A DNA stretch of 64,000 bases, from NCBI RefSeq assembly GCF_013408095.1, contig NZ_JACBZF010000005.1:1-64000 (forward strand), given 5' to 3'. The translations under genes were made by a program, and so were the position numbers. This document shows, one piece after another, positions 1 through 17,868 of the stretch; position 1 is the stretch's first letter, and every line of letters begins with the position of its first letter. The notes under the pieces were generated by a model. It had not been told where the DNA came from, did no database searches, and worked only from the letters and a program-made list of their open reading frames with translations. Origin of the DNA: Novosphingobium marinum (lineage in GTDB: Bacteria; Pseudomonadota; Alphaproteobacteria; Sphingomonadales; Sphingomonadaceae).

Positions 1-713
1 CTGTCCTGCGCGGTGAACGGCACGACCTTCGTCGTATCCTCGGCATCGCCGCGGAAGAGGACGACCCGGTGAAGGTTGTCGCCGTTGATCATCGAGGTCC
101 ATTCGTACCCGATCAGCGCGGTGAACCGGCCCGGCCGGTTGAACCGGTCCGCGCGCTCGGCAACACCCTGCCAGATGCTTCCGACTAATTCTGCCGGCAC
201 ATCATAGGTCTTGTCATCAGACTGGATGGCCTTGGCAAAGTCGAGAATCAGATCACGGCGATTATCGTCGCGCAGCATTTGCGCCCACCGCTTGCCAATA
301 TCCCACCTGGAAAGGCGCGGGTCGCCCTCCAGCAGCAGCGGGTAGACGCCGAGATATTCCGAGTGATCGGTGATCGCGATGAAGTCGAGCGGCTTGCGCA
401 GCCGGGCCGGCGAGCCGTTGTCGGCCTCGATCGTCTCGCCCATCGCGAAGCGATACGCATCCTCCGGCGAGACCGAGCGGGTGCCGTTGAGGAACGCGTC
501 GGGCGACAGGTTCGTGTGCAGGTGCAGGTCGCCGAAGTAGAGGTTGTTCTCCAGCGGCTCCTGCAGAACGGGGGAATAGGTGGCACCGACCGCCGAGCGC
601 GCATTGCCGGCCACGCTGGCCTGCGCCTGCCCGACCGGCTCGTGAACCCACAGCGCAATAACGATGCCGCAACTCGCCAGCATCGCAGCAGATGTCTGTC
701 CTAGCCGGATCAT
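1..713 (-). CDS. DUF3604 family protein, 3' end cut by window edge
   Basis: N-terminal 237 codons of a DUF3604 protein; the C-terminal part lies beyond the left edge. The ATG at 713 is preceded by GGAGGAG and followed by a hydrophobic, signal-like N-terminus (about residues 8-25), so export is likely. The motif GDLHLHTN and the later ITDHSEYLG resemble the metal-binding His clusters of PHP-type phosphoesterases, which is the usual reading of this family; the reaction is unknown. It is clearly homologous to the next gene upstream (847-2736) over its whole visible length, including DAFLNGTRSVSPEDAYRFA and DNLHRVV, so the two are a tandem duplication. The neighbouring TonB-dependent receptor suggests work on an imported small molecule, which is inference. 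Confidence 0.9.
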   Translation of the reverse strand, partial: MIRLGQTSAAMLASCGIVIALWVHEPVGQAQASVAGNARSAVGATYSPVLQEPLENNLYFGDLHLHTNLSPDAFLNGTRSVSPEDAYRFAMGETIEADNGSPARLRKPLDFIAITDHSEYLGVYPLLLEGDPRLSRWDIGKRWAQMLRDDNRRDLILDFAKAIQSDDKTYDVPAELVGSIWQGVAERADRFNRPGRFTALIGYEWTSMINGDNLHRVVLFRGDAEDTTKVVPFTAQD

Positions 714-788
714 TCCGCGATCTCCTCCTCGTTTCGGGCTGCCATCGTAGTGGAGCCGCCGCCGGGAGGGTGTGGCGACGGCTCCGCC

Positions 789-813
789 AACCTGCCGGAA
801 AATCCGGCAACAG
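789..813 (-). terminator. Hairpin between the two DUF3604 genes
   Basis: A perfect 7-bp inverted repeat TGCCGGA/TCCGGCA with a three-base loop (793-809), extended by ACC/GGT outside a small bulge. It lies just downstream of the stop of the DUF3604 gene at 847. There is no T-run, so it is a weak or Rho-assisted terminator, or an mRNA-end hairpin, rather than a textbook terminator. Confidence 0.4.
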
Positions 814-846
814 GTGATCGATTTCGCCTGCGCCCCGTCGAAACAT

Positions 847-2736
847 TCACGGGCGGTACCAGATAGGCGAGCTGTAGGCGCGGTCCTGGACCTTCATCCT
901 GACATTCCCGGGGATTGTCAGACCGAAGAACGCCGCATCGTAGGCGGTCCATCGGGGGCGCGGTATCTCGAGTACGCGAACGTAATAGAACGCAGGCTGT
1001 GCGGGGTCGAAATCCGGATCGGACCAGAACGCCGCCAGTTCCGGATCACCGATCGAGTTTTCGTAGGTCGCATTGGCGAGGTCGACGGTATCGCCGACCG
1101 GCGGCGCCTTGCCGTCCGGGCCGACGTGTCGACCGTCGGACAGCGCGACATCGTAGATTTTCTCGTGGGTCTGGCCGTTTGCGTCGAGCCAGCCCTTGAT
1201 GATCTGCACCCGGTCCAGGTTCGCAGAGTCCGGATCCCTTACCGCATGAACCAGGAAGGCTGGTGCATTACCGGATCGTCCGAGGTCGCTGCCCATGGGA
1301 ACGCCCCTGGAATAGGCGTATCGAGCATAATCGGGCCGGTCGATGTCACGCTTCTCGAAATCGTAGCCGCCAAAGAACCTCAGCCGAATTCTCGAACCGG
1401 TCGTGCCGTAAACTTCACGGCGGCGCAGGGCATCGAAGATTGCTTCCCGCGTGTTCTCGGGCGCCCATACCGCCGTGAGGCCGGAAGCGCCGAGTTCCCA
1501 GCTTTGCTGCAGGATACCGTACATCGCCTCCTTCCAGCGGTCCGGTGAAGGCTCGGATTCGACGAACTTGCCGAAGAAGTTGTCCTCGGCCGTGGTCGCC
1601 AGCCCGGTGTGGCTGTCAGTGCTGCCGATCATGCCGAACTTGAAGGGGTTGGCTCCAGTAGCGCGCTCGTGCCGCAGGCCTTCGCGCAGGGCCGAGCGTG
1701 CGTATTCGTACTTCAGCATCCACGGAGCTTTCTTCCGGGTAAGCGCGATGTTCCCGGTATCCCAGGTTTCGAAATCGGCGAACTCGTCGGTCGGCGAAAG
1801 CGCGGGATGCGCCTCGCCGTCGCCCTTTACCTGCGTGACTTCGTAGACCGGCTCCCACCGGCTGCGCATCTCGGCATAGCGCGCATTCAGCGGCTGGCCG
1901 TTGAGCCGTGTCGGAGCGAACATGCGCCCGTTCGAGACGTTGCCGTTATGCGCAATCGCAAGAGCGGATATGCCCTGCTTTCCATACCCTGCAAGCGCGT
2001 TCCACAAGTCTTCCGGATCCTGGCTGTCCTGCGCCGTGAAAGGGCGGATTGCGCTTGTCTTGTCGGCCCCGTCCCTGAAGATCACGACGCGGTGGAGGTT
2101 GTCGCCGCTGATCGTCGTGGTCCACTCGTATCCGACCAGCGCGGTGAACCTGCCAGGCTGGTTGAATCGATCCGCACGCTCTGAGACTTCCGCCCAGATC
2201 GAGCGCGCCGATTCGTCCGGCGGCCGGAGAGAGGCGTCGCCCGATGTGATCGCGCGGTCGAAGGCCTGCGCCACGCCCTGCTTGTCTCCCCGCTCGAGGA
2301 ATTCGGCCATCTGCCTGCCAAGGGGCCATGAGAGCAATGCCTGGTTTCCGGCGACCAGTTTCGGGAATACGCCGAGATATTCCGAGTGATCGGTGATCGC
2401 GATGAAGTCGAGCGGCCGGCGCAGTTTCGCGCTTCTCCCGCCATCGGCCTTCACGACCTCTCCAAGAGCGAACCTGTACGCGTCCTCGGGCGAAACGCTT
2501 CTGGTGCCATTGAGGAAGGCATCCGGAGACTGGTTGGTATGGAGGTGCAGGTCACCCCACAGCAGCATGTTCTCGCTTGGCTCGCGCAGGGGGGGCGAAT
2601 AGGAGCGAGCCATGTCCGAGGTGCCCGTTTCGCCCCTGTCATCGTCCGTCTGCGCGGGCGCCGAGGGGGCGCCGCCGACCGACACCGAAGCTAGCAGGAT
2701 CGCGCTGCCTGCTAGGAACCAATTCCTGTAATTCAT
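847..2736 (-). CDS. DUF3604 family protein, complete
   Basis: 629-residue DUF3604 protein. The start at 2736 was chosen because MNYRNWFLAG begins a clear signal peptide ending near APAQ (residue 29); the longer frame adds nine residues without a hydrophobic start. GDLHLHTN (residues 61-68) and ITDHSEYLG (114-122) carry the His/Asp clusters that resemble PHP-type metal sites. In bacteria the family is exported and often sits near catabolic genes, but no activity can be named. It lies 90 bases downstream of a TonB-dependent receptor, separated by an intrinsic terminator, and upstream of its truncated paralogue at 1-713. The two copies differ in the stretch after PKLVAG/PLLLEG, so they have diverged. 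Confidence 0.92.
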   Translation of the reverse strand: MNYRNWFLAGSAILLASVSVGGAPSAPAQTDDDRGETGTSDMARSYSPPLREPSENMLLWGDLHLHTNQSPDAFLNGTRSVSPEDAYRFALGEVVKADGGRSAKLRRPLDFIAITDHSEYLGVFPKLVAGNQALLSWPLGRQMAEFLERGDKQGVAQAFDRAITSGDASLRPPDESARSIWAEVSERADRFNQPGRFTALVGYEWTTTISGDNLHRVVIFRDGADKTSAIRPFTAQDSQDPEDLWNALAGYGKQGISALAIAHNGNVSNGRMFAPTRLNGQPLNARYAEMRSRWEPVYEVTQVKGDGEAHPALSPTDEFADFETWDTGNIALTRKKAPWMLKYEYARSALREGLRHERATGANPFKFGMIGSTDSHTGLATTAEDNFFGKFVESEPSPDRWKEAMYGILQQSWELGASGLTAVWAPENTREAIFDALRRREVYGTTGSRIRLRFFGGYDFEKRDIDRPDYARYAYSRGVPMGSDLGRSGNAPAFLVHAVRDPDSANLDRVQIIKGWLDANGQTHEKIYDVALSDGRHVGPDGKAPPVGDTVDLANATYENSIGDPELAAFWSDPDFDPAQPAFYYVRVLEIPRPRWTAYDAAFFGLTIPGNVRMKVQDRAYSSPIWYRP

Positions 2737-2778
2737 CGACAACCCCCGGAGCCTGTGTCGCATGCTGGTTCACCGTCG

Positions 2779-2816
2779 AAAAAAGTGCGCGCCTCCGCAA
2801 GGGAAGGAGGCGCGCA
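2779..2816 (-). terminator. Intrinsic terminator after the TonB-dependent receptor
   Basis: Perfect 11-bp stem TGCGCGCCTCC/GGAGGCGCGCA (2786-2796 with 2806-2816) and a nine-base loop. Read leftwards it is followed after one base by six T (A run at 2779-2784). It lies directly after the receptor stop at 2827, so the DUF3604 genes probably depend on read-through or on their own promoter. Confidence 0.9.
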
Positions 2817-2826
2817 GTCAGGAGGT

Positions 2827-5229
2827 TCAGTACTTCAGTCCGACTTCCACCCCGAAATACCTCGGTTCGCCGTACGTCTCGCGCCGGAACAGGGCGCCAA
2901 CGGTCTGGCCGCCCGTGAAGTAGAGCTCGTCGGTCAGGTTCTTGCCGATGAGCCTCACGGTGTAGCGGTCGTCGATGTCGGTGAACGCGATCGAGGCGTT
3001 AAGCAGGGTCTTGGAGTCGAGATAGAAGTCGTTGTCCGGGTTGTTGAGATCGAGATTGAAGAGCGTGCGATCCGTATAGGTGAGCGAGCCGAACAGGGTC
3101 AGGTTGCCGATATCTCCTACCGGAAGTTCGTAGCTGATGCTCGCCGAACCTTGCCATTCGGGCGTGCGGGCAAGCGGTGCTTCGGCAAGGTTTCGCGCCG
3201 TCGGGGTCGGCGAATTGAACGACTTGTACTTGCCGTCCTGATATCCCAGCGTTCCGCGCAGCGTCAGACCGCGGGTGGGAGCTATCGTCAACTCGGCTTC
3301 GATGCCTTTGACGTCGACCTTGGCGGCGTTGATGAAGCGGATTTCCGTGAAGTCCGAACCATCAGGCCGGGTAAAGGGGAAGAGCAGCTGGCGCTGCGCA
3401 TCGTCGTACGTCACCCAGAACCCGGCCAGATTCAACCGCACCATGCGATCGAACAGGTCTGACTTGAGACCGACTTCGAAAGAGTCTGCAGTCTCGGGGT
3501 CGTACGGGGTGAGCTGGTCCTGGATGAGCGGTACGCCGGACTGGCCGACTTCGTTGAAGCCGCCCGCCTTGTAGCCACGGGCATAAGTCACGTACGGGAA
3601 GATGTCGGGGGTCGCTTCGTAGCTCAGGCTGATCCGCCATGTCGGATCACTCCAGCTCTGTTCGTTACGGACCACGCCCTGCGGGAAGCGATCGAAGTCT
3701 CCGAAATCGAGCGAGCGGTCCAGCATCTCCCAGGTCAGGTCGGGATCGAGCGCCTGGGCGAATACGGCGGCGCGCGCCGCGAATTTTTTCTTGTCCCAGC
3801 TGTACCGACCGCCGAGGGTCAGGTTCAGTCGATCGGTGATGTCGAAGTTGCCTTCGGCAAAAACCGCAATCGACCGCGAATCCTGATTGTTGCAATTTGC
3901 CTGCGGCGTCTGCGAATTGGGACCGAACGGCCCCGGTCCGCTCACCAGGTCGAGGAACCCGAGCAGAGTGGGCGCGCAGTAGTCGATATCGTCCTTCTGG
4001 AAAAAGAAGCCCGCCACGAGGTCGAACCGGTCCGAAAAGGATGCCGCGTAGCGAAGTTCCTGCTGGAAGGTCCTCCGATTATCGTCGCGCGAAGCGCTGT
4101 AGAGCGCGATCGGAGAATATTCGCCGGCGAAATTGCCCGGCAGTCGCGATCGTTGCGACCTGTAGCCCGTGACCGAACTGATGGTTCCCGGGCCGGCATC
4201 GATGTCGATGTTCGCATAGACGCCGTCCACGTTGACGCGCATCCCCTTGTCGAGGTCTACAAGGCCAACGTTGCCGCCGAAAAGGCCTCCGCGTTCGAGC
4301 GGGTCACCGGATCCGCCGGGAAAACCGAGATTACTGTAGAGAAAACCGGGTGGCGTTGCGTTGACGACACCGGCCACCTCGCCGGAATCGCGGACGATCT
4401 CGTACTGGAGGAGCGCGCTGATCGACGGGGTCGGTTCCCAGAGCAGCTTTGCGCGTCCGTTGAAGACGTCGTCGCCGCCAAGCCCGCTTCCGTCGCCGCA
4501 ACCGGTCCGGCCGGCAAGCGCCTGCGCGAAGTCGGAGGTCGAGAACGGCGTGATCGGGCCGAAGCAGGCTCCGTTCTTCACGTATCCGTCGGTCTTGCGA
4601 TAGCTCCCCACCAGCCGCAGGGCGAGGTTGTCGCCGAGCGGCAGATTGGCTGCCGCCTGGAAGACCCTGGTCTTGAAGGAACCGATCTCGCCGCGCACCT
4701 GGAAGCCCAGTTCGCCGAGTTCGGGCCGCTTGCTTCGCGCGACCACGACGCCGCCGGTCGTGTTCTTGCCGAACAGGGTGCCCTGCGGACCGCGCAGTAC
4801 CTCGATCTGCTCGAGGTCGAACGTGTCGAGCAACTGGGTCTGGATCGACGGCATCACGAAATCGTCGAACACGACGCCGACCGGCGCTTCATTGAAGGGA
4901 ATGATCGTCGATACGCCGACGCCGCGCATGGCGAAGGCCGCAGCCTTGAAACTGGGTATCGTGGCGGACGAGAAGTTCGGCACGTAGGCGGCGAGGTCCC
5001 CGACATCGCGCGGCGCAATCTGGTCCATCGTCTGGCTCGAAATGGCCGAGACGGCAATCGGCGTCGTCTGGAGCCGCGTATCGCGACGCGTGGCGGTAAC
5101 GACGATGTCCTCGATACCTGTCGATCGCACTTCGGGCTGGACCGATGCTGCCTCCTGCGCATGCAGGTTGCCCACCGGTACGGCAAGCGCGTAAACGAAC
5201 GACGCCGACAGCAGATATTTCGATTTCAT
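2827..5229 (-). CDS. TonB-dependent outer-membrane receptor
   Basis: 800-residue TonB-dependent receptor. The start at 5229 is preceded by GGGAGGGG and gives a signal peptide MKSKYLLSASFVYALAVPVG ending near LHAQ. A TonB box (EDIVVTATRR) follows at about residues 39-48, then the plug with the LRGPQGTLFGKNTTGGVV signature, then a beta-barrel rich in alternating aromatic residues and ending in VEVGLKY. It is the type common in Sphingomonadales that takes up hydrophobic or complex small molecules; the cargo cannot be read from sequence. A TetR-type regulator is divergent, with a palindrome in the shared promoter. The gene ends in a strong terminator. Confidence 0.95.
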   Translation of the reverse strand: MKSKYLLSASFVYALAVPVGNLHAQEAASVQPEVRSTGIEDIVVTATRRDTRLQTTPIAVSAISSQTMDQIAPRDVGDLAAYVPNFSSATIPSFKAAAFAMRGVGVSTIIPFNEAPVGVVFDDFVMPSIQTQLLDTFDLEQIEVLRGPQGTLFGKNTTGGVVVARSKRPELGELGFQVRGEIGSFKTRVFQAAANLPLGDNLALRLVGSYRKTDGYVKNGACFGPITPFSTSDFAQALAGRTGCGDGSGLGGDDVFNGRAKLLWEPTPSISALLQYEIVRDSGEVAGVVNATPPGFLYSNLGFPGGSGDPLERGGLFGGNVGLVDLDKGMRVNVDGVYANIDIDAGPGTISSVTGYRSQRSRLPGNFAGEYSPIALYSASRDDNRRTFQQELRYAASFSDRFDLVAGFFFQKDDIDYCAPTLLGFLDLVSGPGPFGPNSQTPQANCNNQDSRSIAVFAEGNFDITDRLNLTLGGRYSWDKKKFAARAAVFAQALDPDLTWEMLDRSLDFGDFDRFPQGVVRNEQSWSDPTWRISLSYEATPDIFPYVTYARGYKAGGFNEVGQSGVPLIQDQLTPYDPETADSFEVGLKSDLFDRMVRLNLAGFWVTYDDAQRQLLFPFTRPDGSDFTEIRFINAAKVDVKGIEAELTIAPTRGLTLRGTLGYQDGKYKSFNSPTPTARNLAEAPLARTPEWQGSASISYELPVGDIGNLTLFGSLTYTDRTLFNLDLNNPDNDFYLDSKTLLNASIAFTDIDDRYTVRLIGKNLTDELYFTGGQTVGALFRRETYGEPRYFGVEVGLKY

Positions 5230-5396
5230 ATGATCAACCCCTCCCTTCCCATGCACTTCCGCCAGAAACGGCGAGAGTGCCCGTGCGACCGGCGGCGGCC
5301 TGGCTCGCACGCGATATTTTCCTGGTTTCGGAGGATGTCGGAACAGACATCCCCTCCCGGCTTCGTGACCGTTTTGCGGCCCATGTAATTGCCTCG

Positions 5397-5425
5397 AAGC
5401 TAATTGCGTTTCATATTGAAGTCAA
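5397..5425 (-). promoter_or_regulatory. Candidate sigma-70-like promoter of the TonB receptor
   Basis: On the minus strand TTGACT (5425-5420) is followed after 17 bases by TAGCTT (5402-5397). The -35 match is good and the -10 match is weak. It overlaps the palindrome at 5419-5432, which would suit repression by the divergent TetR-type protein. Confidence 0.35.
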
Positions 5426-5432
5426 TTGACTT
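5419..5432. promoter_or_regulatory. 14-bp perfect palindrome, candidate TetR operator
   Basis: AAGTCAATTGACTT is a perfect 14-bp palindrome in the 222-base gap between the divergent receptor and TetR genes, 19 bases before the regulator's ATG. TetR-family proteins commonly bind such sites in the promoter they share with a divergent target. Binding by this regulator is inferred from position. Confidence 0.55.
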
Positions 5433-5451
5433 GCATTGTTCGGAGATTCCG

Positions 5452-6270
5452 ATGATCACCCAGCAGGCTCAGATCGACACCGGCTCCCCGCCGGACGGGC
5501 TCAACAGGAACCAGCTTGCGCTGATCCTTGCCGCCGAACGGGAGTTCGCGAAGGAAGGGATCGATCAGGCCTCGCTACGCCGGATCGCGACGCTGGCGGG
5601 AAACGGCAACAATAATGCCGTCCAGTATCATTTCGAGAGCCGCGAAGGTCTTGTTCTCGCCTTGCTGCGATACCGTGTCGGCCAGATGGAAGCGCGACGG
5701 CGCGAGATGCTGCATAACGCCAGGCTCAATGGAAAACTTGGCCACATTCCGACACTTGCGAGAAGTTTCTGCCTTCCGCAACTCGACCTGCAAACCGACG
5801 ATGGCGACTTTCCCTACGCCAGGTTCCTCCTGCAGTTCTACGCGCTATACAAGGACAAGGAGTACCGGAAGGGCGTCGACATCATCACGTCGGAATTTCC
5901 GGCAATCGGGGAAACCCGCAGGCTTTTGATCGATGCCATGGGGTACGATCAGGAGTGGGCCCACAGGAGGATCACGGCGGGATTCACGATGTTCCTGGGC
6001 GTTCTCGTCCGCCACGCGGGCGCAATCCGTTCGGGTCTGCCGACGGAACCTGTGACCGAGATCGTGGAGGACGCCATGGAAATAGTTATCGCGGGCCTGT
6101 GCGCTCCTTCCCCGCTTCATGGGACGCAGGCGGTTGCACCAAGCGAAGACGACGGGGCATCGACGGTTGAGCGCATGACCCTTGCGGAGCTCGAGGAAGA
6201 AAACCAGGCACTCAAAGACCTTATCGGCGAACTCAGCGTCGAGCGCTCACGCCGGAAGGTCGCGCGATAG
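5452..6270 (+). CDS. TetR-family transcriptional regulator
   Basis: 272-residue TetR-type repressor. The ATG at 5452 has CGGAGA upstream; the longer frame would add 16 residues lying over the palindrome. The N-terminal helix-turn-helix spans about residues 20-65, ending in the typical YHFESREGLVLALL. The C-terminal domain is ligand-binding type without a named family. An unusual tail, LAELEEENQALKDLIGEL, forms a short heptad-like coiled coil that most TetR proteins lack. It is divergent from the TonB receptor and faces the P450 gene convergently, so it probably controls the receptor and perhaps the oxidation genes; the inducer is unknown. Confidence 0.88.
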   Translation: MITQQAQIDTGSPPDGLNRNQLALILAAEREFAKEGIDQASLRRIATLAGNGNNNAVQYHFESREGLVLALLRYRVGQMEARRREMLHNARLNGKLGHIPTLARSFCLPQLDLQTDDGDFPYARFLLQFYALYKDKEYRKGVDIITSEFPAIGETRRLLIDAMGYDQEWAHRRITAGFTMFLGVLVRHAGAIRSGLPTEPVTEIVEDAMEIVIAGLCAPSPLHGTQAVAPSEDDGASTVERMTLAELEEENQALKDLIGELSVERSRRKVAR

Positions 6271-6389
6271 GCCCCTGTGTCTCCGATCGCGAGGCTGACG
6301 CATATGACTTAATTCTAGGGCCGGCAGCGCTCGCAATGTCCGGGAAGCGTCGCGTGAAGTTCGTCGGGAATAGTCGCGGAACGTCCGGT

Positions 6390-7688
6390 TCAGGCCGGGT
6401 CGAACTCGATCAGGAGCCGCTTCAGCGCCCGGTGCGAAACCGAATGCATGTGGGCGAAATCGTTCCCTTCGGCCAGGCGGATGTCGCGCATGCGATCCAG
6501 CATTGCCGAGAATCCGAACTGGAGCTCTCGCCGTGCCAGCGTCGCGCCGACGCAGTGGTGCGGCCCAGATCCGAATGCGACATGCGTGGCGGCGTTGCGC
6601 CGGGCAAGATCAAGCTCGGCGGGGCACCCGAACTGTCGCTCGTCACGGTTGGCCGCGCCGTAACGCAAGTGGATCATCGCGCCTTCGGGAATGGTCACGC
6701 CGTGCAGGTCGAACGTCCTGCCGGCGACGCGAAAAAGACCCTGGACCGGGCTTTCCAGCCGCAGGACTTCCTCAACGAAGGTCCGAAGGTGCGCGTCCCG
6801 ATCCTCGCGCAGCGCAGCCTGGACCTCGGGATTGCGGCACATCAGCATGATACCGGACGACAGGGCGTTCGTCGTCGTCTCGCTTCCGCCGACGAGAAGA
6901 TCGGACAGGATGTGCGTAAGCATTTCCCCGTCCTCGATCATCCCGCCATCGGGCATCGGCGAGTTGACCAGGTCGCTCAGGATCGTGTCGTCGGGATTGC
7001 TGCGCAGCCGCCTGACGATGTCCATCATGTAGTGCTGGAATTCGATCTCGAGACCGACGGCCCGGGCATCCTGCTCGTCGTCGAGCATCAGGCCGATGCG
7101 GTTGATCCACGCCTCGGTCCATTCCTTGATCCGCCACATGTCCTTCTTCGGCGCGCCGACCTGCGTGATGATGACGATGAGCGGGAAGGGCATGGCGAAT
7201 TGCGCGACGAAGTCGGCCTGCCCGTCTGCGGCGAATTCATCGACGAGCTGGTAGGCCGTTTCGCGCACGAACGGCTCCATCTCCCTGACTTTCCCCGCCC
7301 TTAGCGCGCCGTCGAACACGGCGCGGAGCGGCTTGTGCCGCTCGGGCCCCAGTTGCAGGATGCTCGGCCCCGGAAGCCAGCCCTCTGTCCGGAAACGCTC
7401 TTCGGCCTGCCTTGCGCGTTCCGCCTGCGAATGGCTGCGCAACTTGTCGAAGTAGTTCTGGCAGGAATAGGTCTCGACATCGAGAAGGGCCGCGCGGATG
7501 TCCTCGTACCGCGTCAGCACGTAGAAACCGCCGACGGGATCGTAATAGACGGGCGCCTCGTCGCGCGCTGCCTGATAGGCCTCGTACGGACATTCGGAGA
7601 TTTCCGGGTCCATGAAGCTCACCGGCTCGCCGTCCGGCTTCGATAGAGCAGGAGAGCCGCCCGCGGTCCGTTCGTCAGATGCGGACAT
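6390..7688 (-). CDS. Cytochrome P450
   Basis: 432-residue bacterial class I P450. All key motifs are visible: I-helix LLVGGSETTTN (about 265-274) with the Glu-Thr pair used in oxygen activation, the ExxR pair in EVLR (307-310) and the haem loop AFGSGPHHCVG with the Cys ligand at 379. The ATG at 7688 shares one base with the TGA of the EthD-like gene, so the two are translationally coupled. The longer upstream frame only reads through that gene. No ferredoxin or reductase gene is nearby. Substrate unknown; context suggests oxidation of a hydrophobic compound taken up by the adjacent receptor. Confidence 0.95.
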   Translation of the reverse strand: MSASDERTAGGSPALSKPDGEPVSFMDPEISECPYEAYQAARDEAPVYYDPVGGFYVLTRYEDIRAALLDVETYSCQNYFDKLRSHSQAERARQAEERFRTEGWLPGPSILQLGPERHKPLRAVFDGALRAGKVREMEPFVRETAYQLVDEFAADGQADFVAQFAMPFPLIVIITQVGAPKKDMWRIKEWTEAWINRIGLMLDDEQDARAVGLEIEFQHYMMDIVRRLRSNPDDTILSDLVNSPMPDGGMIEDGEMLTHILSDLLVGGSETTTNALSSGIMLMCRNPEVQAALREDRDAHLRTFVEEVLRLESPVQGLFRVAGRTFDLHGVTIPEGAMIHLRYGAANRDERQFGCPAELDLARRNAATHVAFGSGPHHCVGATLARRELQFGFSAMLDRMRDIRLAEGNDFAHMHSVSHRALKRLLIEFDPA

Positions 7689-8062: not shown

Positions 8063-8140
8063 TTCATCGTTCTCCCATGGGCGTGACTTCAGTCGGTCGC
8101 CTTTATTGCAGCCGCGACCGCGTTTGAGACTTCACCCGGC

Positions 8141-10237: not shown

Positions 10238-10498
10238 CGGCTTTCCCTCCCGTTAGATGAGCGATCAGGCAACTTGCTCGCTGGTCGCGAGGGCCTCTGT
10301 CCGGGCCCTTCCTTTCCGACAACGTTACAAGATAGCCGAGCGGTGAAAGCTGACTTTTTGGGCAGGCCTTTCAGATTCCAATTGCCGGCCTGCGGTCCGC
10401 GTGACGCATCGTATCCGATCCTGTTGAACCCCTGCCGCCTGCCGGTATTGTCCAGGCGGCAGGCGAGTCGTCTGGCGATAGAAAAACGGGAGAGATAG

Positions 10499-10966: not shown

Positions 10967-10982
10967 GGGACCTCAAGTCCGC

Positions 10983-11018
10983 AGCCGGGTGACATTCACT
11001 GTCCGGTGGAACCCGGCT
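10983..11018. terminator. Candidate bidirectional hairpin between convergent genes
   Basis: Arms AGCCGGGT and ACCCGGCT (8 bp, perfect) flank a 20-base loop between the convergent SnoaL and P450 genes. There is no T-run on either side and the right arm touches the P450 stop, so it is a weak terminator at best. Confidence 0.3.
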
Positions 11019-12235
11019 CAGTCCCACCGCAAGGGCAGCCTGTTGACGGTTGCCACGATGCCGCCTTCCATTTCCACCCGGTCGGTTTCGTCCACCCTGA
11101 AATCGGGGATGCGCGGCAGCCACTCCTCAAGAGTGATGCGAACTTCGCTTCGGGCCAGCATGGCTCCGGGGCAGCGGTGCGCGCCGTTGCCGAAGGTCGA
11201 ATGCGCGCCGATCTTGCGGCGGAAATCGACATCGAGGGAGCGCTCGTACTCCCGGTCGTCGAGGCCGTGGAGGGCGTTCGGCATGATGACGAGGTCGCCG
11301 CCGCGCATGTGCACGCCATGGAAATCGAGGTCGGCCAGCACCTCGCGCCCGTTCTGAACGATGCCGAACCGGCGGAAGAACTCCTCGACCGCCGTGTGCT
11401 TTATCGACGGGTCGTCGATCAGCTGGCGGCGGTGCCCCGGATTTCGCGCAAGGAACAGCATGATGAAGCCGAGCGAGGATATGACCGTGTCGAGGCCGCC
11501 CATCAGGACCTGCGTGCCCAGCTCGATCGCCTGATGTTCCGGCAGCGGGGCGCCGTTGACCTCGCTGGTGACGAACTGGCTTATCAGGTCGTTGCCGGGG
11601 TTGCGTGTCCGCTCGCGAATGACGGGTTTCAGGTAGTCGGAGAATTTCTGCATCGTCGCTTCGGCGGAATCGGCCGATTCGGGGCGCAGCACATCGTCGA
11701 CCCAGCCCTTCATCATCAGGGCGTCGTCGAGGGGCAGGTCGACCATCATCATGAAGATGTTGATCGGGAGGACTTCGGCGAATTCGCTGACGAACTCGCA
11801 CTTTCCCCGTGGCGCGAGCTGTTCCACGGTCCGCACGACAAGATCGCGGATGTCCGGCTCAAGTTCGCGCACCATGCGCGGCGAGAGCCCCGCGTTGAGC
11901 AGCGCGCGGTAGGGACGGTGCTCCGGAGGGTCGAGCGTCGTCGGCAGGACCTTGATGCCATCGCCGCGCTCGCGCGGCACGATGATCGTCTTCGAGGAGA
12001 AATGCTCGAAGTCGGCGAAGATCTCGTGGATCAGCTTCCCGCGCAGCGCAATCCAGTGCCCGCCGTTGCGCGGGGTCCAGATCATGTCCGGAGCTTCGTC
12101 CTGCAGCCTTTTCCATGCGCCGTGAAAGTCCTCCCCGGCGCCCGGCGGATCGTAGAGATCGAAATCGACGACGAGATGCTCCGGGACATGGTGCGGAACC
12201 GGTGCAAGCGAAGTCGACTGGGTTACGGTTGCCAT
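11018..12235 (-). CDS. Cytochrome P450, CYP101 (P450cam)-like
   Basis: 405 residues, matching P450cam almost without gaps. NGGHWIALRG, the DFEHFSS segment, GGLDTV (246-251), EEFFRRF (284-290), FHGVHM and TFGNGAHRCPG (haem Cys355) each align to the P450cam counterpart with a constant offset of two. Asp251, Thr252, Glu287, Arg290 and Cys357 of P450cam are kept. The Tyr96 position, which hydrogen-bonds camphor, is Ile94 here, so the ligand probably differs. The ATG at 12235 has GAGGAC upstream. No putidaredoxin-type partner is in the window. CYP101 relatives in sphingomonads oxidise norisoprenoids and other terpenoids; the substrate here is inferred only as hydrophobic. Confidence 0.93.
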   Translation of the reverse strand: MATVTQSTSLAPVPHHVPEHLVVDFDLYDPPGAGEDFHGAWKRLQDEAPDMIWTPRNGGHWIALRGKLIHEIFADFEHFSSKTIIVPRERGDGIKVLPTTLDPPEHRPYRALLNAGLSPRMVRELEPDIRDLVVRTVEQLAPRGKCEFVSEFAEVLPINIFMMMVDLPLDDALMMKGWVDDVLRPESADSAEATMQKFSDYLKPVIRERTRNPGNDLISQFVTSEVNGAPLPEHQAIELGTQVLMGGLDTVISSLGFIMLFLARNPGHRRQLIDDPSIKHTAVEEFFRRFGIVQNGREVLADLDFHGVHMRGGDLVIMPNALHGLDDREYERSLDVDFRRKIGAHSTFGNGAHRCPGAMLARSEVRITLEEWLPRIPDFRVDETDRVEMEGGIVATVNRLPLRWD

Positions 12236-12426
12236 CGGAACGTCCTCTCGCTCGTTATTGCGTCGATGATAACCGAGCGGGTCAGTTTGCGACAGGGTAC
12301 TTGTAGGGGTGTCGACTTCGGCTCTTCCTGCGACAGACGCATCGGCGTGGACGCGCGCCACAGTTCCCGGCAAGGTGTCGCAGCGTCCGCCAAGGCGGAG
12401 AGGCGCCTTTGGAGAGGAGCGACACG

Positions 12427-12942
12427 ATGATTGCACCGAAGAATTTCTTTCAGTCGGCCTGGGTGGTGAGGGACCTGGACGAGGCGGTGGACCGCTGGCT
12501 CAGGACCATGCGGGTCGGACCCTTCTTCATGATGCGCGATGTCGAGGTCGAAGGGTTCCGCTATCGCGGCACTCCCGGGACCATCCGCTTCAGCGCCGCG
12601 CTGGCGCAGGCCGGATCGATGCAGATCGAGCTTATCCAGCAGGACGGAAGCGATCCGTCGGCATACCGGGACAGCATCGCCGAGGGCGAGGAAGGCTTCC
12701 ACCATTTCGGCACGATCGTGCCTGACTACGAAGCCGAATTGTCGTTCTACACGTCGCAGGGAATCGCCGTTGCTGCCGACGGAATGTTCGGCGACATGCA
12801 CTACGCCTACGTCGATACGCGCGACCAGATCGGGTACATGACCGAACTCGTCGAGGCCAAGGAATCCATCCTCGAACTGTTCAGGACGGTCGCCGACGCG
12901 GCGGTAGACTGGGACGGTCGCGATCCGATCAGAACGCCGTGA
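12427..12942 (+). CDS. VOC (glyoxalase/dioxygenase-fold) protein
   Basis: 171 residues. SAWVVRDLDEAVDRWLRTM opens a vicinal-oxygen-chelate domain and EGFHHFGTIVPDYEAEL opens the second beta-alpha-beta unit, with His residues placed as possible metal ligands. The ATG at 12427 follows GGAGAGGAG; an in-frame TTG at 12409 is less likely. It is divergent from the CYP101-like P450, with a 191-base gap that holds both promoters. VOC proteins next to P450 and SnoaL genes often act as ring-cleaving dioxygenases, isomerases or hydrolases; which one applies here cannot be told. Confidence 0.85.
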   Translation: MIAPKNFFQSAWVVRDLDEAVDRWLRTMRVGPFFMMRDVEVEGFRYRGTPGTIRFSAALAQAGSMQIELIQQDGSDPSAYRDSIAEGEEGFHHFGTIVPDYEAELSFYTSQGIAVAADGMFGDMHYAYVDTRDQIGYMTELVEAKESILELFRTVADAAVDWDGRDPIRTP

Positions 12943-13001
12943 GGCGATAGCGCACGCGCGGGACGCGCAGGGTACCGGCAGGCGTCATTGCCGGCCGCGA
13001 G

Positions 13002-13385
13002 TCACCGGTCGCCCAGTATCAGGGCGTTTTCGGGAGGGGTGCGCGAACCCCGGGAAGCGGCGGGGTCGGCGGTCGTCTTCGAAATGCGGGTCGCGAGTTC
13101 CTTGCCCAATCGCGAGAACCTGTCCTGGATGCTTTCCGACGCGCCACCGTCCCAGTCGATCGATTCGAGTGAACCGACGACTATCTCGACCAGGTGGCGG
13201 GCACCGATCTTCGACTGCTTTTCGATAGCTCCGTAGAACCGGTCGGTCGGCATGACCGTCCACTGGCGGCCATCGGACAGCGGCGGTGTCGTGCCGGCAG
13301 CGAACTCGTGCTGCCCCGACCGGATGAGGCTCTCGATCTCGGCGACGAGCTCGTCCTTGTAGGTATCGTTGGCGGAATGTTTCAT
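13002..13385 (-). CDS. Uncharacterised 127-residue protein
   Basis: Not recognised. The protein is soluble, with amphipathic helices (YKDELVAEIESLIRSG; ARHLVEIVVGSLESI) and a disordered Pro/Arg/Ser-rich tail. No signal peptide, Cys pairs or catalytic motif is evident. CCGGAG lies before the ATG. It starts 12 bases after the RadC-like gene on the same strand and is the last gene of a five-gene leftward cluster. Codon use matches the neighbours. Confidence 0.7.
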   Translation of the reverse strand: MKHSANDTYKDELVAEIESLIRSGQHEFAAGTTPPLSDGRQWTVMPTDRFYGAIEKQSKIGARHLVEIVVGSLESIDWDGGASESIQDRFSRLGKELATRISKTTADPAASRGSRTPPENALILGDR

Positions 13386-13397
13386 GACTGGCTCCGG

Positions 13398-14018
13398 TTA
13401 CCGGGCGGATTCGTTGTCGAGGAGACCGGCTCGCCGCATGCTGCAGCATGACGCTCCGGCGACGATGATGTGATCCCTGATCTCGATGCCGAGAGCGGCA
13501 GCGAGCGCGGACAACTTTCGCGTTTCGGCGATGTCCTGCGCGCTCGGACGGCATGAGCCCGACGGATGGTTGTGCGCGAGAATTATCGCGGGGGATGCAA
13601 GCTCGATGGCGCGATGGAACAGCGTCCTGATCTTGCTCGCCACCCGACTGGCTTCGCCGGTTCCAAGGCATTCATCGGTGATGTAGGCCCCGTCGCGATC
13701 GAGGTAGAAGACAAACAGGCATTCGCGGTCGCACGCGACGAACCGGGCGCGGAGGTAGTCGAGGAACGAGGGATCGGAGATGTCGACCGGCGCCCCACGG
13801 ACTTGTTCGCGCATGCCAATCTCGACGAGGGCGCGCGCTCCGGTCAGCATGTCCGCAAGTTCGTTGCCGATACCCTCCACCGACGCAATCTGCCTGGCGG
13901 AGGCGGCCATCACCTGCCGGATCGAACCGAACCGCTCGATCAGCCGCTCGGCGCACTCTAGCGCACGGCGACCTGCAAATGGGGCGAGCAGCTGCGCCAA
14001 GACCGGTACGACCCCCAC
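13398..14018 (-). CDS. RadC-like JAB/JAMM domain protein
   Basis: About 206 residues. The N-terminal part (APFAGRRALECAERLIERFGS and ASVEGIGNELADML) is the helix-hairpin-helix-like region of RadC proteins. The C-terminal JAB domain keeps the JAMM zinc motif HNHPSGSCRPSAQD. Despite the name, a DNA-repair role for RadC proteins is not established. There is no in-frame ATG close to the N-terminal domain; a GTG at 14018 gives the family's usual length (a TTG at 14000 is an alternative). The start then overlaps the end of the membrane-protein gene by about 60 bases, implying coupling. Many RadC genes lie in mobile elements, but none is seen here. Confidence 0.85.
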   Translation of the reverse strand: MGVVPVLAQLLAPFAGRRALECAERLIERFGSIRQVMAASARQIASVEGIGNELADMLTGARALVEIGMREQVRGAPVDISDPSFLDYLRARFVACDRECLFVFYLDRDGAYITDECLGTGEASRVASKIRTLFHRAIELASPAIILAHNHPSGSCRPSAQDIAETRKLSALAAALGIEIRDHIIVAGASCCSMRRAGLLDNESAR

Positions 14019-14449
14019 GCCCGCTTTCGCTGCATGTGGCTGTGGATTCCCAGCGCCAGTATCAGCAGCTCGAAGTAGGAGGGCGTGATTATCATTATGG
14101 AATAGGCCTGGCCGGCCATGCCATGGCTCAGTTCCCGGGACAGGTGGGACGTCGCGCTTATCAGTTGAAAGGCTGCCAGCCATAGGGGGTACATCCGGTT
14201 CGCGTAGAGGCCGCAATAGACGAGGAGGCCGGCTGTCAGGACGTCGATCACCGCGTGACCCCAGTCCACCGACACCCACGTCGCGTCTCCGAAGAGAAGG
14301 TGGTTCGGGATATCGAGCAGGAACATCGCCGCGATGGCGCTTGCCGCGAGGCGTTCGGATCCCGCCCCGATCCACCACGCCAGTGCGCAGAGGAACAGGG
14401 CGAGACCGAACTGGACCTCGTCTTTCACGGCAAGAAAGAGTTCGAGCAT
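13958..14449 (-). CDS. Small polytopic membrane protein
   Basis: 163 residues, not assigned to a family. About four or five hydrophobic segments are visible: QFGLALFLCALAWWIGAG, AASAIAAMFLLDIPNHLL, VIDVLTAGLLVYCGLYA, YPLWLAAFQLISA and SYFELLILALGIHS. The tail is strongly basic (MQRKRAW and onward), predicted cytoplasmic. It lies 36 bases after the 112-residue protein and overlaps the RadC-like gene at its 3' end. Its place in an operon led by a membrane-anchored LuxR-type regulator suggests an envelope role, which is inference. Confidence 0.75.
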   Translation of the reverse strand: MLELFLAVKDEVQFGLALFLCALAWWIGAGSERLAASAIAAMFLLDIPNHLLFGDATWVSVDWGHAVIDVLTAGLLVYCGLYANRMYPLWLAAFQLISATSHLSRELSHGMAGQAYSIMIITPSYFELLILALGIHSHMQRKRAWGSYRSWRSCSPHLQVAVR

Positions 14450-14485
14450 CCGATACCCGTTCGAGTTTGCGATCCGGGCGCAGGG

Positions 14486-14818
14486 TCAGGCCACGCGCGC
14501 GAGGTCGCTTTCTTCCAGACCGGCCGCCGGAGTGGAACCGTCCTCGTCACCGATACCGACGACTTCGCGGACCTTGACCAGTTCGTCGTGTACGCGGAAC
14601 AGGTCGCTGGCGGAATCGATTTCGGTCTGGATCGAGCGACCGAGGCGGATCATTGCCTTCTGGCCCACGTGCGGCACGTCCACTTCGTCCGACTGGCGGG
14701 CGAGGATCAGCGATTCCATGAGCTTGATCTTGGCGAGCAGGGCCTCGTCGGCCTTGGCTTCGGCTCCGCGGATATCGCGGCGAATGCGTACGTCGGCGGC
14801 GTGAATGGAAATCGACAT
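14486..14818 (-). CDS. Uncharacterised small helical protein
   Basis: 110 residues from the ATG at 14818 (112 from the one at 14824; GGGGACG lies upstream of both). The body is one long charged helix region: KADEALLAKIKLMESLILAR, then GQKAMIRLGRSIQTEIDS and DLFRVHDELVKVREVVG. No membrane segment, Cys pair or enzyme motif. It sits about 40 bases after the LuxR-type gene on the same strand and before a membrane protein. It could be an adaptor or partner of the regulator; no function can be assigned. Confidence 0.7.
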   Translation of the reverse strand: MSISIHAADVRIRRDIRGAEAKADEALLAKIKLMESLILARQSDEVDVPHVGQKAMIRLGRSIQTEIDSASDLFRVHDELVKVREVVGIGDEDGSTPAAGLEESDLARVA

Positions 14819-14860
14819 TGTCATAGCGTCCCCGGCGGACCGGGCTCGACCGGTCGGCTC

Positions 14861-15400
14861 TCAAGTTTGGTTTCGAGGGGCCGGTCCGTCGCTTTCCAAA
14901 GCTTCCGTCACACCCTGGGCGACACCGAGACCGACCATGACCAGGGCAAGCATACCGAACGCCAGCCCAAGGATCGCCGCGATGCGCCAGACCGTTCCGT
15001 GCGGACCGTCGAGCACCCTCGGGACTACGGACCGGGAGGCAGACCGCTCCCACGGCGCGTAACGATCGAACGTTACCGCGTCGTGGAAGACAGCCATGTC
15101 GACCCGGGCGTCCCGGACCTTCTCTTCGCCTGTCCCGTCGCGTTCCGGCAGATCATTTTTTGTATATGCAGGTTTCCTGCACCCCTCCTCGGCGGCAGGG
15201 TTTTCGAGGGTTTCGGACCATTCCGCGATTTCGCGCAATGAATTCACGCCAAGGCGCAGCTTGATGCGCGCCACGTGCTGGTTGACCGCCGATTCGGAAA
15301 TATCGAGTGCCCCGGCAATCTCCTTGATCGTCAGGCGATCCTCCAGAAGGCGGGCAATCTCCCGTTGGCGGGGGGTCAGTTGTTCCAGGTCCGGGTCCAT
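14861..15400 (-). CDS. LuxR-type regulator with C-terminal membrane anchor
   Basis: 179 residues from the ATG at 15400 (a GTG at 15430 would add ten). The N-terminus is a LuxR-type helix-turn-helix: LTPRQREIARLLEDRLTIKE, then SESAVNQHVARIKLRLGV. A middle linker is charged. One transmembrane helix (WRIAAILGLAFGMLALVMVG, about residues 137-156) sits near the C-terminus. There is no receiver or autoinducer domain. A DNA-binding head tethered to the membrane by a C-terminal helix recalls ToxR/CadC-like arrangements, but with a LuxR head and almost no periplasmic part. It leads the cluster that ends at 13002 and probably controls it. Confidence 0.82.
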   Translation of the reverse strand: MDPDLEQLTPRQREIARLLEDRLTIKEIAGALDISESAVNQHVARIKLRLGVNSLREIAEWSETLENPAAEEGCRKPAYTKNDLPERDGTGEEKVRDARVDMAVFHDAVTFDRYAPWERSASRSVVPRVLDGPHGTVWRIAAILGLAFGMLALVMVGLGVAQGVTEALESDGPAPRNQT

Positions 15401-15501
15401 TGTCGTCGGCACGATTTTAGCACGATTCACCTAAGACTGTTAACGGATCAATCCGGTGGCAGGTTCCTTGGCCGGTCGGCCTCTCCTTCTCGCGCGGGGT
15501 T

Positions 15502-16074
15502 CTAGCCGGGAAAGCGCAGGTCATGGCGTCCCAAAGCCGCGTAGGAAGGATCGGCCTTCGTGCGCGTGGCGGGATAGAGCGGCGCGTCGGGCGCCGTCGG
15601 CTCGAGCAGCGGAACGCCTGCAAAGTCCGCCATCGTCCCCTGCAGGGGTTCGACGCGGTCCCAGTCGTGCACCGAGCGGCGGTGGACGAAGCCCCACTTG
15701 CCGTCGATCGCGCGGTGATGGTCGAGGTATCGGCCGCCGCCCGTGATGTCGACGATCCCGCCGTCGCGCTCGACGCGCAATAGGACGGTCCAGTAGCTTT
15801 CGCTCCACGCCTCGTCGCCGTCCACCTCGATCAGGATGTTGGTCAGGACGTGCCGGGTCAGCACCATGGGTTCGTGCAGCCTGAACACCCAGTCGACGAA
15901 GTCCGCGCCCGTGCCCGAGAACAGCGGCGTGTGCTCGTCCGTTCCGCCCGGATGCCAGCATGACAGCGCCAGGTCCCGGTCCATGCGGTCGAGTGCGCGG
16001 CAATAGTTGTTGAGGTTCTCGGTGATCGCCTGCTTGGCGGCGAGCGTCGCTGCGTCGGAGACGGGAACGGGCAT
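15502..16074 (-). CDS. SnoaL-like protein
   Basis: 190 residues. LNNYCRALDRMDRDLALSCW is the typical first helix of SnoaL-like/NTF2-fold catabolic proteins; the core continues through RHVLTNILIEVDGDEAWSES and a last strand, WGFVHRRSVHDWDRV. It has the His/Asp-lined cavity pattern of the family and a proline-rich tail. It starts 16 bases after the old yellow enzyme gene, and a second SnoaL gene precedes that enzyme. The SnoaL-OYE-SnoaL order suggests one pathway acting on an enone-type substrate, which is inference. Confidence 0.85.
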   Translation of the reverse strand: MPVPVSDAATLAAKQAITENLNNYCRALDRMDRDLALSCWHPGGTDEHTPLFSGTGADFVDWVFRLHEPMVLTRHVLTNILIEVDGDEAWSESYWTVLLRVERDGGIVDITGGGRYLDHHRAIDGKWGFVHRRSVHDWDRVEPLQGTMADFAGVPLLEPTAPDAPLYPATRTKADPSYAALGRHDLRFPG

Positions 16075-16090
16075 CGAAGCCTCCCTTGCC

Positions 16091-17236
16091 TTACCCGGTC
16101 GTCTCTACGCCGACAGGGGTAGGAGCGGCATCGACGTCCTGGCTGGGCGTGTCCTCGGTCATCTCCGCGACAGTCGGGTAGTCGGTGTACCCTTCCTTCC
16201 CCTGGGTGTAGTAGGTCGCAAGGTCGGGCCGGTTGAGCTTTGAGCCGTCGCGGTAGCGCTCGGCGAGGTCGGGATTGGCGATGAAGGCCTGTCCGAATGC
16301 GATCCCGTCGGCGCCGCCGCTCTCGATCGCTTCCGCGCCCGTCTGGCGGGTAAAGCCGGCAGTGTAGAGCACCGGCCCGTCGAACTGCGGCCTCAGGATG
16401 CCGTAGACGTCCCAGTCGACGAAGTAGTTCCCGAGCTGGAGATAGGCGATGTCGCGCTTCGAAAGCTCGCGCAGCAGGTGGCCGTAGGTCGCGGGCGCAT
16501 CGTCGTCGAACACGTCGTGGAAGGTCCAGCCCGGGGCCACCTTGACTGCGACGAACTTCGGCCCGGCGACCTCGGCCATGGCATCGACGCAGGCGAGAAC
16601 GAAGGCGCAGCGCTTCTCCAGCGTCCCGCCCCACTCGTCGGTGCGCAGGTTGGTGTTCTGCGAGAGAAACTGCATCGGCAGGTACCCGCTCGCGGCATGG
16701 AGCTCGACACCGTCGAGACCCGCGGCCAGCGCCCGTTCGGTGCAGGCCTTGAATTCGTCGATGGTGGAAAGGACCTCGGCGTGCGTCATCTCGCGCGGTT
16801 CGGGGTAGGGGCGCTTGGGGCGCGGGCACGATACGGTGTAGTGGCGCGCGGTCGGATCTGGCTGCACGGCGGAAGGAGCGATGGGTTGCGCACCGTCGAG
16901 CATGAGCGGATCGGAAAGCCTGCCGACATGCATCACCTGCATGAAGATCGCGCCGCCGCGTTCGTGCACTGCGTCCGCCACGCGCGCCCAGCCGGCCTGC
17001 TGCTCGTCGGTGTAGTTGCCCGGCGCGAAGAGATAGCCGTTGCCCATCGGCGAGGGCGAGGTGCCCTCGGTGATGATCAGGCCCGCACTGGCGCGCTGGC
17101 GATAGTGCTCGACGTTGAGGTCGGTCGGCACACCCCGCAGCGTCGAGCGCTGCCGGGTCATCGGGGCCATCGCGATGCGATTGCGCATCCGGATCCTGCC
17201 GAGGTCAAGCGGCTGAAAAAGGGAATCGATGGACAT
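16091..17236 (-). CDS. Old yellow enzyme family NADH:flavin oxidoreductase
   Basis: 381-residue FMN-dependent ene-reductase. LFQPLDLGRIRMRNRIAMAP is the family's N-terminal signature; GLIITEGT, VELHAASGYLPMQFLSQNTN, RTDEWGG and the FMN-phosphate region near GADGIAFGQAFIANPDL follow in order. Members reduce activated C=C bonds of enones, nitro-esters and similar compounds using NAD(P)H. The ATG at 17236 lies five bases after the stop of the upstream SnoaL gene, whose 3' end carries the GGAG ribosome site. The longer frame to 17644 only overlaps that gene. Confidence 0.94.
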   Translation of the reverse strand: MSIDSLFQPLDLGRIRMRNRIAMAPMTRQRSTLRGVPTDLNVEHYRQRASAGLIITEGTSPSPMGNGYLFAPGNYTDEQQAGWARVADAVHERGGAIFMQVMHVGRLSDPLMLDGAQPIAPSAVQPDPTARHYTVSCPRPKRPYPEPREMTHAEVLSTIDEFKACTERALAAGLDGVELHAASGYLPMQFLSQNTNLRTDEWGGTLEKRCAFVLACVDAMAEVAGPKFVAVKVAPGWTFHDVFDDDAPATYGHLLRELSKRDIAYLQLGNYFVDWDVYGILRPQFDGPVLYTAGFTRQTGAEAIESGGADGIAFGQAFIANPDLAERYRDGSKLNRPDLATYYTQGKEGYTDYPTVAEMTEDTPSQDVDAAPTPVGVETTG

Positions 17237-17241
17237 GGCCG

Positions 17242-17793
17242 TTATTGCTCCTGTGTCGGGCGGGAAGGAATTTCGGGAGGCAGGACCATACCCTGCTCGC
17301 CGATGGAAGCGCGCGGGCGCGGGCCGAGTGCGGCGGCCCTTTCGAAAAGGCCGACATCGCCCTGTTCCCAGGTAATCGTCAGGCAAAGCCGCCTGATCTT
17401 CCAGCCCGTGCCGGTACGGACGACGTCGTGCACGTAGTGCCCGCCGATCATGTGATGATGCTCGGCTCCGTCGAGGACGAGAACGTGGCGTGCCGACATC
17501 TGGCAGCGCAAGGTGGCTTCGTCGCCGTTCAGGTCGATATCGATGTTGGTCATTGAGTGCTGGGTGGCGTCGAACGGCGCAAGCGTGGAACACACGAGCG
17601 CGACCCATTCGTCGGCATCGAAGCTCTGGTTCACGCCCGACCATGCGAAGTCGGCGGCGATGCTGTCGGCGAAGATCGAACGGTAAAGCGACCAGTCGCG
17701 CAGGTCGATGCCGTAGGAATAGCCGTTGAGCAGAGCGGCGATCGCCTGCCGGTCTTCAAGGCTGCGCAGCTGCGCTTCGATCTCGCCGTTCAT
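17242..17793 (-). CDS. SnoaL-like protein
   Basis: 183 residues from the ATG at 17793, preceded by GGGGGA; the frame can also open at a TTG at 17820. LRSLEDRQAIAALLNGYSYG, then SIFADSIAADF and a sheet ending GTGWKIRRLCLTITWEQG, match the SnoaL-like fold. It is the first gene of the SnoaL-OYE-SnoaL unit. It resembles the gene at 15502 only in fold, so the two probably act on different intermediates. The last 25 residues are proline-rich. Confidence 0.85.
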   Translation of the reverse strand: MNGEIEAQLRSLEDRQAIAALLNGYSYGIDLRDWSLYRSIFADSIAADFAWSGVNQSFDADEWVALVCSTLAPFDATQHSMTNIDIDLNGDEATLRCQMSARHVLVLDGAEHHHMIGGHYVHDVVRTGTGWKIRRLCLTITWEQGDVGLFERAAALGPRPRASIGEQGMVLPPEIPSRPTQEQ

Positions 17794-17868
17794 CCAATCC
17801 CCCCGCTCACTGCCGTTCAATGGCCGGAACGGTGACGGTTTTCAACCGTTCGATGGGGCTCGCCCGCC

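Follow-up and report, generated by a model that had tools for sequence, protein, structure and literature searches.

Do the receptor, oxygenase and dehydrogenase genes at the start of contig NZ_JACBZF010000005.1 of Novosphingobium marinum (assembly GCF_013408095.1) act together on one compound and, if so, on what kind of compound? The window analysed here comprises the first 64,000 nucleotides of this contig. An initial annotation had read the first 18 kb as a possible unit that could import and oxidise a terpenoid- or steroid-like compound. Genes were called by codon usage and the proteins of 1-18309 were scanned against Pfam and NCBIfam, which placed every family named in that annotation at its given position. 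The best single explanation of our results, held tentatively and at just under an even chance, is that positions 1-12942 form one locus for the catabolism of a small hydrophobic molecule, most likely a (nor)terpenoid. The features of this locus are as follows.

3-683, minus strand: DUF3604 protein a, N-terminal part only, at the contig end (PF12228, E 7.4e-56)
847-2736, minus strand: DUF3604 protein b, complete, 629 aa (PF12228, 799 bits)
2827-5229, minus strand: TonB-dependent outer-membrane receptor (TBDR), TBDR1 (PF00593 and PF07715)
5419-5432, no strand: perfect 14-base palindrome AAGTCAATTGACTT between TBDR1 and TetR, candidate TetR operator
5452-6270, plus strand: TetR-family regulator, divergent from TBDR1 (PF00440, E 4.1e-6)
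6390-7622, minus strand: cytochrome P450, P450A (PF00067; haem motif FGSGPHHCVG)
7688-8062, minus strand: EthD-domain protein (PF07110, E 1.9e-11)
8141-10237, minus strand: type II quinohaemoprotein alcohol dehydrogenase with pyrroloquinoline quinone (PQQ) and haem c (TIGR03075; 1kv9)
10499-10966, plus strand: SnoaL1, an NTF2-like protein of the SnoaL_4 family (PF13577)
11018-12235, minus strand: CYP101-family P450 without the camphor Tyr96 (P450cam, E 2.1e-116)
12427-12942, plus strand: VOC protein, Glyoxalase_4 (PF13669)

The P450 at 11018-12235 may point to the substrate class. P450s that share more than 40% identity over the whole protein belong to one family, and this protein is 43.6% identical (176 of 403 aligned pairs) to its best solved relative, P450cam (CYP101A1). 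Together with the presence of the haem cysteine and the Asp251-Thr252 pair, this makes it, by sequence, a CYP101 member. It keeps Asp251, Thr252, Arg112, Arg299, His355 and Cys357 of P450cam, but has Ile in place of Tyr96 and of Phe87, Val in place of Phe98, Leu in place of Thr185, Gln in place of Leu244, Met in place of Val247 and Asn in place of Asp297; we take these P450cam residues to serve the substrate site or catalysis. Thus, Tyr96 of the camphor hydroxylases (CYP101A1, D1 and D2) is absent from the window protein, which has Ile instead. A study of CYP101D5 (PMC9655578) describes the ionone-preferring CYP101B1 and C1 as also being without the tyrosine, and CYP101D5 as hydroxylating flavonoids. 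An ionone-like or other terpenoid substrate would therefore fit better than camphor, since substrate-site residues have changed and Tyr96 is missing as in CYP101B1 and C1. Within the CYP101 family (P450cam, CYP101B1, C1, D1, D2, D5 and J2) the window protein thus differs from P450cam in its substrate-site residues. Besides this gene, three more CYP101-like matches lie on contig C1 (39-45%), which brings the genome to four, and a contig search with the CYP101 protein as query confirmed no relative.

Taken by family, the genes are most readily read as importing and oxidising a hydrophobic compound. P450A has the canonical P450 motifs; its best solved relative is the one named 'CYP125MRCA' (E 3e-48) and its closest relative among the matches listed is a protein of panel genome G043 (57%). 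The dehydrogenase scored 524.3 bits against TIGR03075 (cut-off 480.05), with 1kv9 as the nearest solved structure (E 2.4e-191), and combines a PQQ propeller with a C-terminal CxxCH cytochrome domain (haem motif CIVCH), as type II enzymes do. Type II quinohaemoprotein alcohol dehydrogenases carry a vicinal Cys-Cys pair near the PQQ. In the alignment this pair is present in 1kv9 and missing in the window protein, as it is in all seven alignable relatives from sphingomonad loci; an eighth, a distant quinoprotein, is gapped there. The nearest solved structures to SnoaL1 are the dehydrochlorinase 5kvb (E 2.7e-6) and the bile acid dehydratase BaiE (E 9.5e-6), suggesting a remote likeness to dehydratases and dehydrohalogenases. 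Of 195 genomes of the genus, two had a SnoaL1 match at E<=1e-20: Novosphingobium malaysiense and the genome of the window. A contig search with SnoaL1 again returned N. malaysiense, at 61%, together with nine more distant loci (25-33%). The VOC protein has relatives of 47% in three CYP101 clusters (L043, L046 and L107), and, judged by the metal ligands that we assume for VOC proteins, it is presumably glyoxalase-like rather than extradiol.

These parts suggest how a catabolic locus at 1-12942 might operate. TBDR1 would carry the compound or a derivative over the outer membrane, and the TetR-family regulator would repress the TBDR1-DUF3604 and tetR promoters, perhaps via the palindrome at 5419-5432, until a ligand comes. 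In the periplasm, as far as signal peptides judged by eye indicate compartments, the DUF3604 proteins may deconjugate the compound, and an alcohol would be turned into an aldehyde or ketone by the PQQ-cytochrome c dehydrogenase. P450A and the CYP101 enzyme would then hydroxylate the skeleton in the cytoplasm, and the SnoaL1, VOC and EthD proteins could perform elimination, isomerisation or other follow-up steps.

With up to one mismatch allowed, the palindrome AAGTCAATTGACTT has no second copy in the 3.59 Mb genome, and it may serve TetR locally. When the window was shuffled 100 times, 43 of the shuffles contained at least one match at up to three mismatches, so one such match is unsurprising. 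Since the palindrome has no second copy at that limit of one mismatch, it does not tie the P450s or the PQQ gene to TetR. Two other candidates for a shared site were rejected. When seven intergenic stretches were compared, six shared 16-mers emerged, each of them at the limit of three mismatches. The dyad GGATGTC-N6-GACATCC (5333) had one match at two mismatches, inside P450A (6479), and seven matches in the window at up to three mismatches, compared to 3.8 expected.

DUF3604 is named in a single paper of the literature that we searched, and is placed beside a receptor here. In DUF3604b, H64, H66, D116, H117, H263, D374 and H376 were invariant among 17 homologues. We take this HxH/DH/H/DxH pattern to resemble that of PHP metallo-enzymes, and on the motif DUF3604b is possibly an exported PHP-type metallo-hydrolase. 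The PHP profile matched none of 17 DUF3604 members, no DUF3604 relative was found in the PDB, and the AlphaFold models were poor (mean pLDDT, the predicted local distance difference score, 36.8 from a single sequence and 39.4 from four). One bolder reading would give this family a function: an undescribed (nor)terpenoid route in which a conjugate imported by the TBDR is opened by a periplasmic, PHP-like DUF3604 hydrolase and oxidised by a quinohaemoprotein clade lacking the vicinal disulphide, after which two P450s act as hydroxylases where the related cassettes have Rieske oxygenases. We regard this as unlikely. DUF3604 as a general partner of TBDRs was rejected: among 20 relative loci, some of them on short contigs, a TBDR gene lay within 5 kb in three. 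A parvulin-like gene lay within 5 kb in 15 of the 20 and a HupE/UreJ-like gene in 14, names that we read from the sequences rather than from profile matches. DUF3604, parvulin-like and HupE/UreJ-like genes thus form a recurring trio (L068, L069, L073, L074, L076-L086; L036:1-2134). In the genome of the window, the DUF3604 genes at contigs C5, C7 and C2 adjoin TBDR genes, and on C1 a DUF3604 piece is followed by parvulin-like and HupE-like genes.

The first base of the window is the first base of contig C5, so DUF3604a is incomplete and the locus may go on in another contig. Further DUF3604 pieces lie at the ends of C1, C2 and C7; an identical stretch of 95 bases is common to C5 and C7, and 136 bases at 99.3% are common to C1 and C2. 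Highly similar DUF3604 copies at four contig ends therefore probably broke the assembly, and the C1 or C2 side is a candidate for the contig to the left of C5.

To the right, the window continues with the following features.

13002-15400, minus strand: five-gene block with RadC
15502-16074, minus strand: SnoaL2 (SnoaL_4)
16091-17236, minus strand: old yellow enzyme (OYE)
17242-17793, minus strand: SnoaL3 (SnoaL_4)

The RadC block encodes a RadC-like JAB protein, a LuxR-type helix-turn-helix protein and three proteins without a Pfam match, and is of low G+C; a search of plasmids at 60% identity or above gave no match for the JAB protein. The genes of 3-15400, this block included, have a mean G+C of 0.625 (n=15), compared to 0.666 for the 41 genes of 18455-64000 (Mann-Whitney p=4.9e-6), and the four genes at 15502-18309 have a mean of 0.660. 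The low G+C would fit an acquired or variable stretch that ends with the RadC block. The SnoaL2-OYE-SnoaL3 operon (15502-17793) differs from 3-15400 in G+C and lies beyond the RadC block. The RadC block and this operon are probably neighbours rather than parts of the unit; the 18-kb unit of the initial annotation is thereby shortened to 1-12942. A wider unit, in which the whole set is one pathway and OYE reduces an enone formed by the oxidising steps, is very unlikely in our view. Such a reduction would make chemical sense once an alcohol has been oxidised and water eliminated, and the genes are adjacent, but the RadC block intervenes, the G+C of the operon is like that of the rest of the window, and OYE had no match at E<=1e-95 in the 157 other panel genomes, a strict cut-off that leaves weaker relatives unlisted. 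In OYE, Ser replaces the Asn of the His-Asn pair seen in 3gka and 7tnb, which we take to be the substrate pair. Further on, two alike small methyltransferase-like genes (17869-18309 and 20012-20422), both containing YDLGSGDGRIPI, lie around an amino acid permease gene.

Conservation of the locus was examined in a panel that joined 157 relatives to the window's own genome (158 in all), with CYP101, P450A, PQQ, TBDR1, DUF3604b, VOC, SnoaL1, EthD and OYE as queries. The E limits were 1e-60 for both P450s, 1e-180 for PQQ, 1e-130 for TBDR1, 1e-100 for DUF3604, 1e-35 for VOC and 1e-20 for EthD. At most six TBDR1, seven PQQ and eleven P450 candidates were scored per genome; homologues and links may be missed. 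Pairs among seven families within 10 kb were counted among the matches listed, excluding the window's own genome, and the expected numbers of pairs assume uniform placement in 3.5 Mb, ignoring kinship and contig breaks. CYP101 and VOC were linked in 6 of the 21 genomes that contain the two (0.47 expected), P450A and TBDR1 in 6 of 13 (0.14), PQQ and TBDR1 in 4 of 8 (0.10), and TBDR1 and VOC in 2 of 14 (0.11). Links in a single genome were found for PQQ-VOC (1/16), VOC-EthD (1/9), P450A-EthD (1/8) and CYP101-DUF3604 (1/13). With the strongest matches only, the fractions were 6/17 for CYP101-VOC, 6/10 for P450A-TBDR1, 4/5 for PQQ-TBDR1 and 0/10 for CYP101-PQQ. In N. malaysiense, relatives of SnoaL1 (61%), VOC (46%) and PQQ (62%) lie within 8 kb. 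CYP101-VOC, P450A-TBDR1, PQQ-TBDR1 and TBDR1-VOC are thus linked above chance, though by few independent events.

Several results weigh against a single catabolic locus. Among the matches listed, the remaining 12 family pairs had no links within 10 kb, including CYP101-TBDR1 (0/10), CYP101-P450A (0/15) and P450A-PQQ (0/13); DUF3604 was linked to no family but CYP101; and three or more of the seven families within 20 kb were found in none of the 157 relatives. CYP101-PQQ pairs were found in 3 of 35 genomes (G137, G055 and G067; 0.89 expected), appearing when weaker matches were included, two of them via P450s of 34-35% identity. Nor do the linked loci count as independent: gene order and flanks are common to L057-L061, and likewise to the P450A-TBDR1 loci of G063, G064, G084, G049 and G072, which represent approximately one event, with G032 a second; the loci of G028, G031 and G069 are also alike. 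The strand switches six times between 2827 and 13002, and therefore the locus is not a single operon. No ferredoxin, ferredoxin reductase or coenzyme A (CoA)-pathway families were found among the genes of the 18 kb by Pfam, NCBIfam and motif scans, and the candidate TetR operator occurs only once in the genome. That the links come from few independent events slightly lowers the probability of a single locus.

The main rival is that two or more unrelated modules (TBDR1-DUF3604-TetR, P450A-EthD-PQQ and SnoaL1/CYP101/VOC) with different substrates came to adjoin one another in a low-G+C region that is variable, a quite possible arrangement that has perhaps one chance in three. The strand changes and the low G+C up to the end of the RadC block favour it, as does the finding that, among the matches listed, the full set was seen in the window's genome only and CYP101-VOC links never meet TBDR1-P450A or TBDR1-PQQ links elsewhere. 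However, the families recur in similar sphingomonad clusters (TBDR-PQQ-VOC and TBDR-CYP101-VOC), and SnoaL1, VOC and PQQ occur together in N. malaysiense. The proposal of import and oxidation thus keeps the support of the family content, the above-chance pair links and the precedent of the edc cluster described below; the co-conservation in relatives on which the initial annotation had made it depend extends to pairs, the full set being found together in none of the 157 relatives among the matches listed.

A steroid substrate is less consistent with the locus. According to PMC7793797, the edc estrogen cluster of Novosphingobium tardaugens NBRC 16725 has a TetR regulator, the P450 EdcA, the glyoxalase-like EdcB, a VOC-domain protein and the TBDR EdcT, which was tested for estrogen uptake and has a growth phenotype. 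The window shares with it TetR, a P450, a VOC-domain protein and a TBDR. In contrast, edc has CoA-type degradation operons that are complete and include EdcB and EdcC, and the terms 'SnoaL' and 'NTF2' are absent from the text of PMC7793797. The locus might be the front end of an edc-type, estrogen-like steroid cluster, with TBDR uptake, P450 ring hydroxylation and ring opening, and the remote likeness of SnoaL1 to BaiE agrees with this. However, EdcC-type oxidoreductase and CoA-pathway genes beside the P450 and TBDR, which mark such a cluster, are lacking: indolepyruvate ferredoxin oxidoreductase, acyl-CoA dehydrogenase, thiolase and MaoC families are all absent from the genes of 1-18309, and the VOC protein looks glyoxalase-like rather than extradiol. 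We therefore consider a steroid cluster quite improbable.

Also among the closest known systems are sphingomonad cassettes of two kinds. TBDR1 relatives of 43-53% sit beside PQQ dehydrogenases or P450s. We read 16 TBDR1 neighbourhoods (TBDR1 relative at least 43%), picked via a search match there so that the counts are not a rate; the PQQ gene was adjacent or one gene off in eight, four of which had a VOC gene nearby. In the first kind, TBDR1 stands beside a PQQ dehydrogenase, in some cases with VOC, Rieske oxygenases and a short-chain dehydrogenase/reductase (SDR), and with two small antibiotic-biosynthesis-monooxygenase-like proteins. This kind, the eight neighbourhoods just counted, was found on C1 of the window's genome and in G028, G069, G031, N. 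malaysiense, PP1Y, Croceicoccus marinus and Sphingobium RAC03. The second kind has TBDR, SnoaL, CYP101, Rieske, SnoaL and VOC genes, and was found in G092, G009 and plasmid pNL2 of Novosphingobium aromaticivorans. In unannotated panel loci, the monooxygenase, Rieske and SDR names were given by likeness to annotated records. In L057-L061, TBDR1 is accompanied by P450A, by another P450 (incomplete in L058) and by a distantly related quinoprotein (23-25%).

The 17-kb cluster on pNL2 of N. aromaticivorans DSM 12444 (SARO_RS18510-RS18575) shares TetR, a TBDR, NTF2/SnoaL proteins (four NTF2-like proteins on pNL2), a CYP101-like P450 (44%) and VOC (47%) with the window. Unlike the window, it has three Rieske alpha subunits, two SDRs and an FAD oxidoreductase; the 17 kb contain no PQQ dehydrogenase, EthD, DUF3604 or second P450, and its TBDR is only 30% like TBDR1. 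Plasmids pBSY17_1 of Sphingobium sp. RAC03 and pCME4A9I of C. marinus, whose records give family names only, share a TBDR (47-48%), a PQQ dehydrogenase (57-58%), VOC (34-40%) and a nearby TetR. They differ in their Rieske oxygenases, antibiotic-biosynthesis-monooxygenase pairs, thiolase, CoA transferase and SDRs, and the stretches read contain no P450, EthD or DUF3604. A limited literature search found no described pathway with the window's gene combination, though one may exist outside its scope.

The annotated records compared do not give the substrates of these TBDR-oxygenase cassettes. In the window, hallmark genes of TBDR-PQQ-VOC and of CYP101-SnoaL-VOC adjoin each other together with P450s, so that substrates can be tested more easily, as P450 binding spectra are a direct substrate readout. 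Lacking a Rieske gene, the window resembles a mosaic of the two kinds that is built on P450s, and the locus is a new combination of cassette types that are already known.

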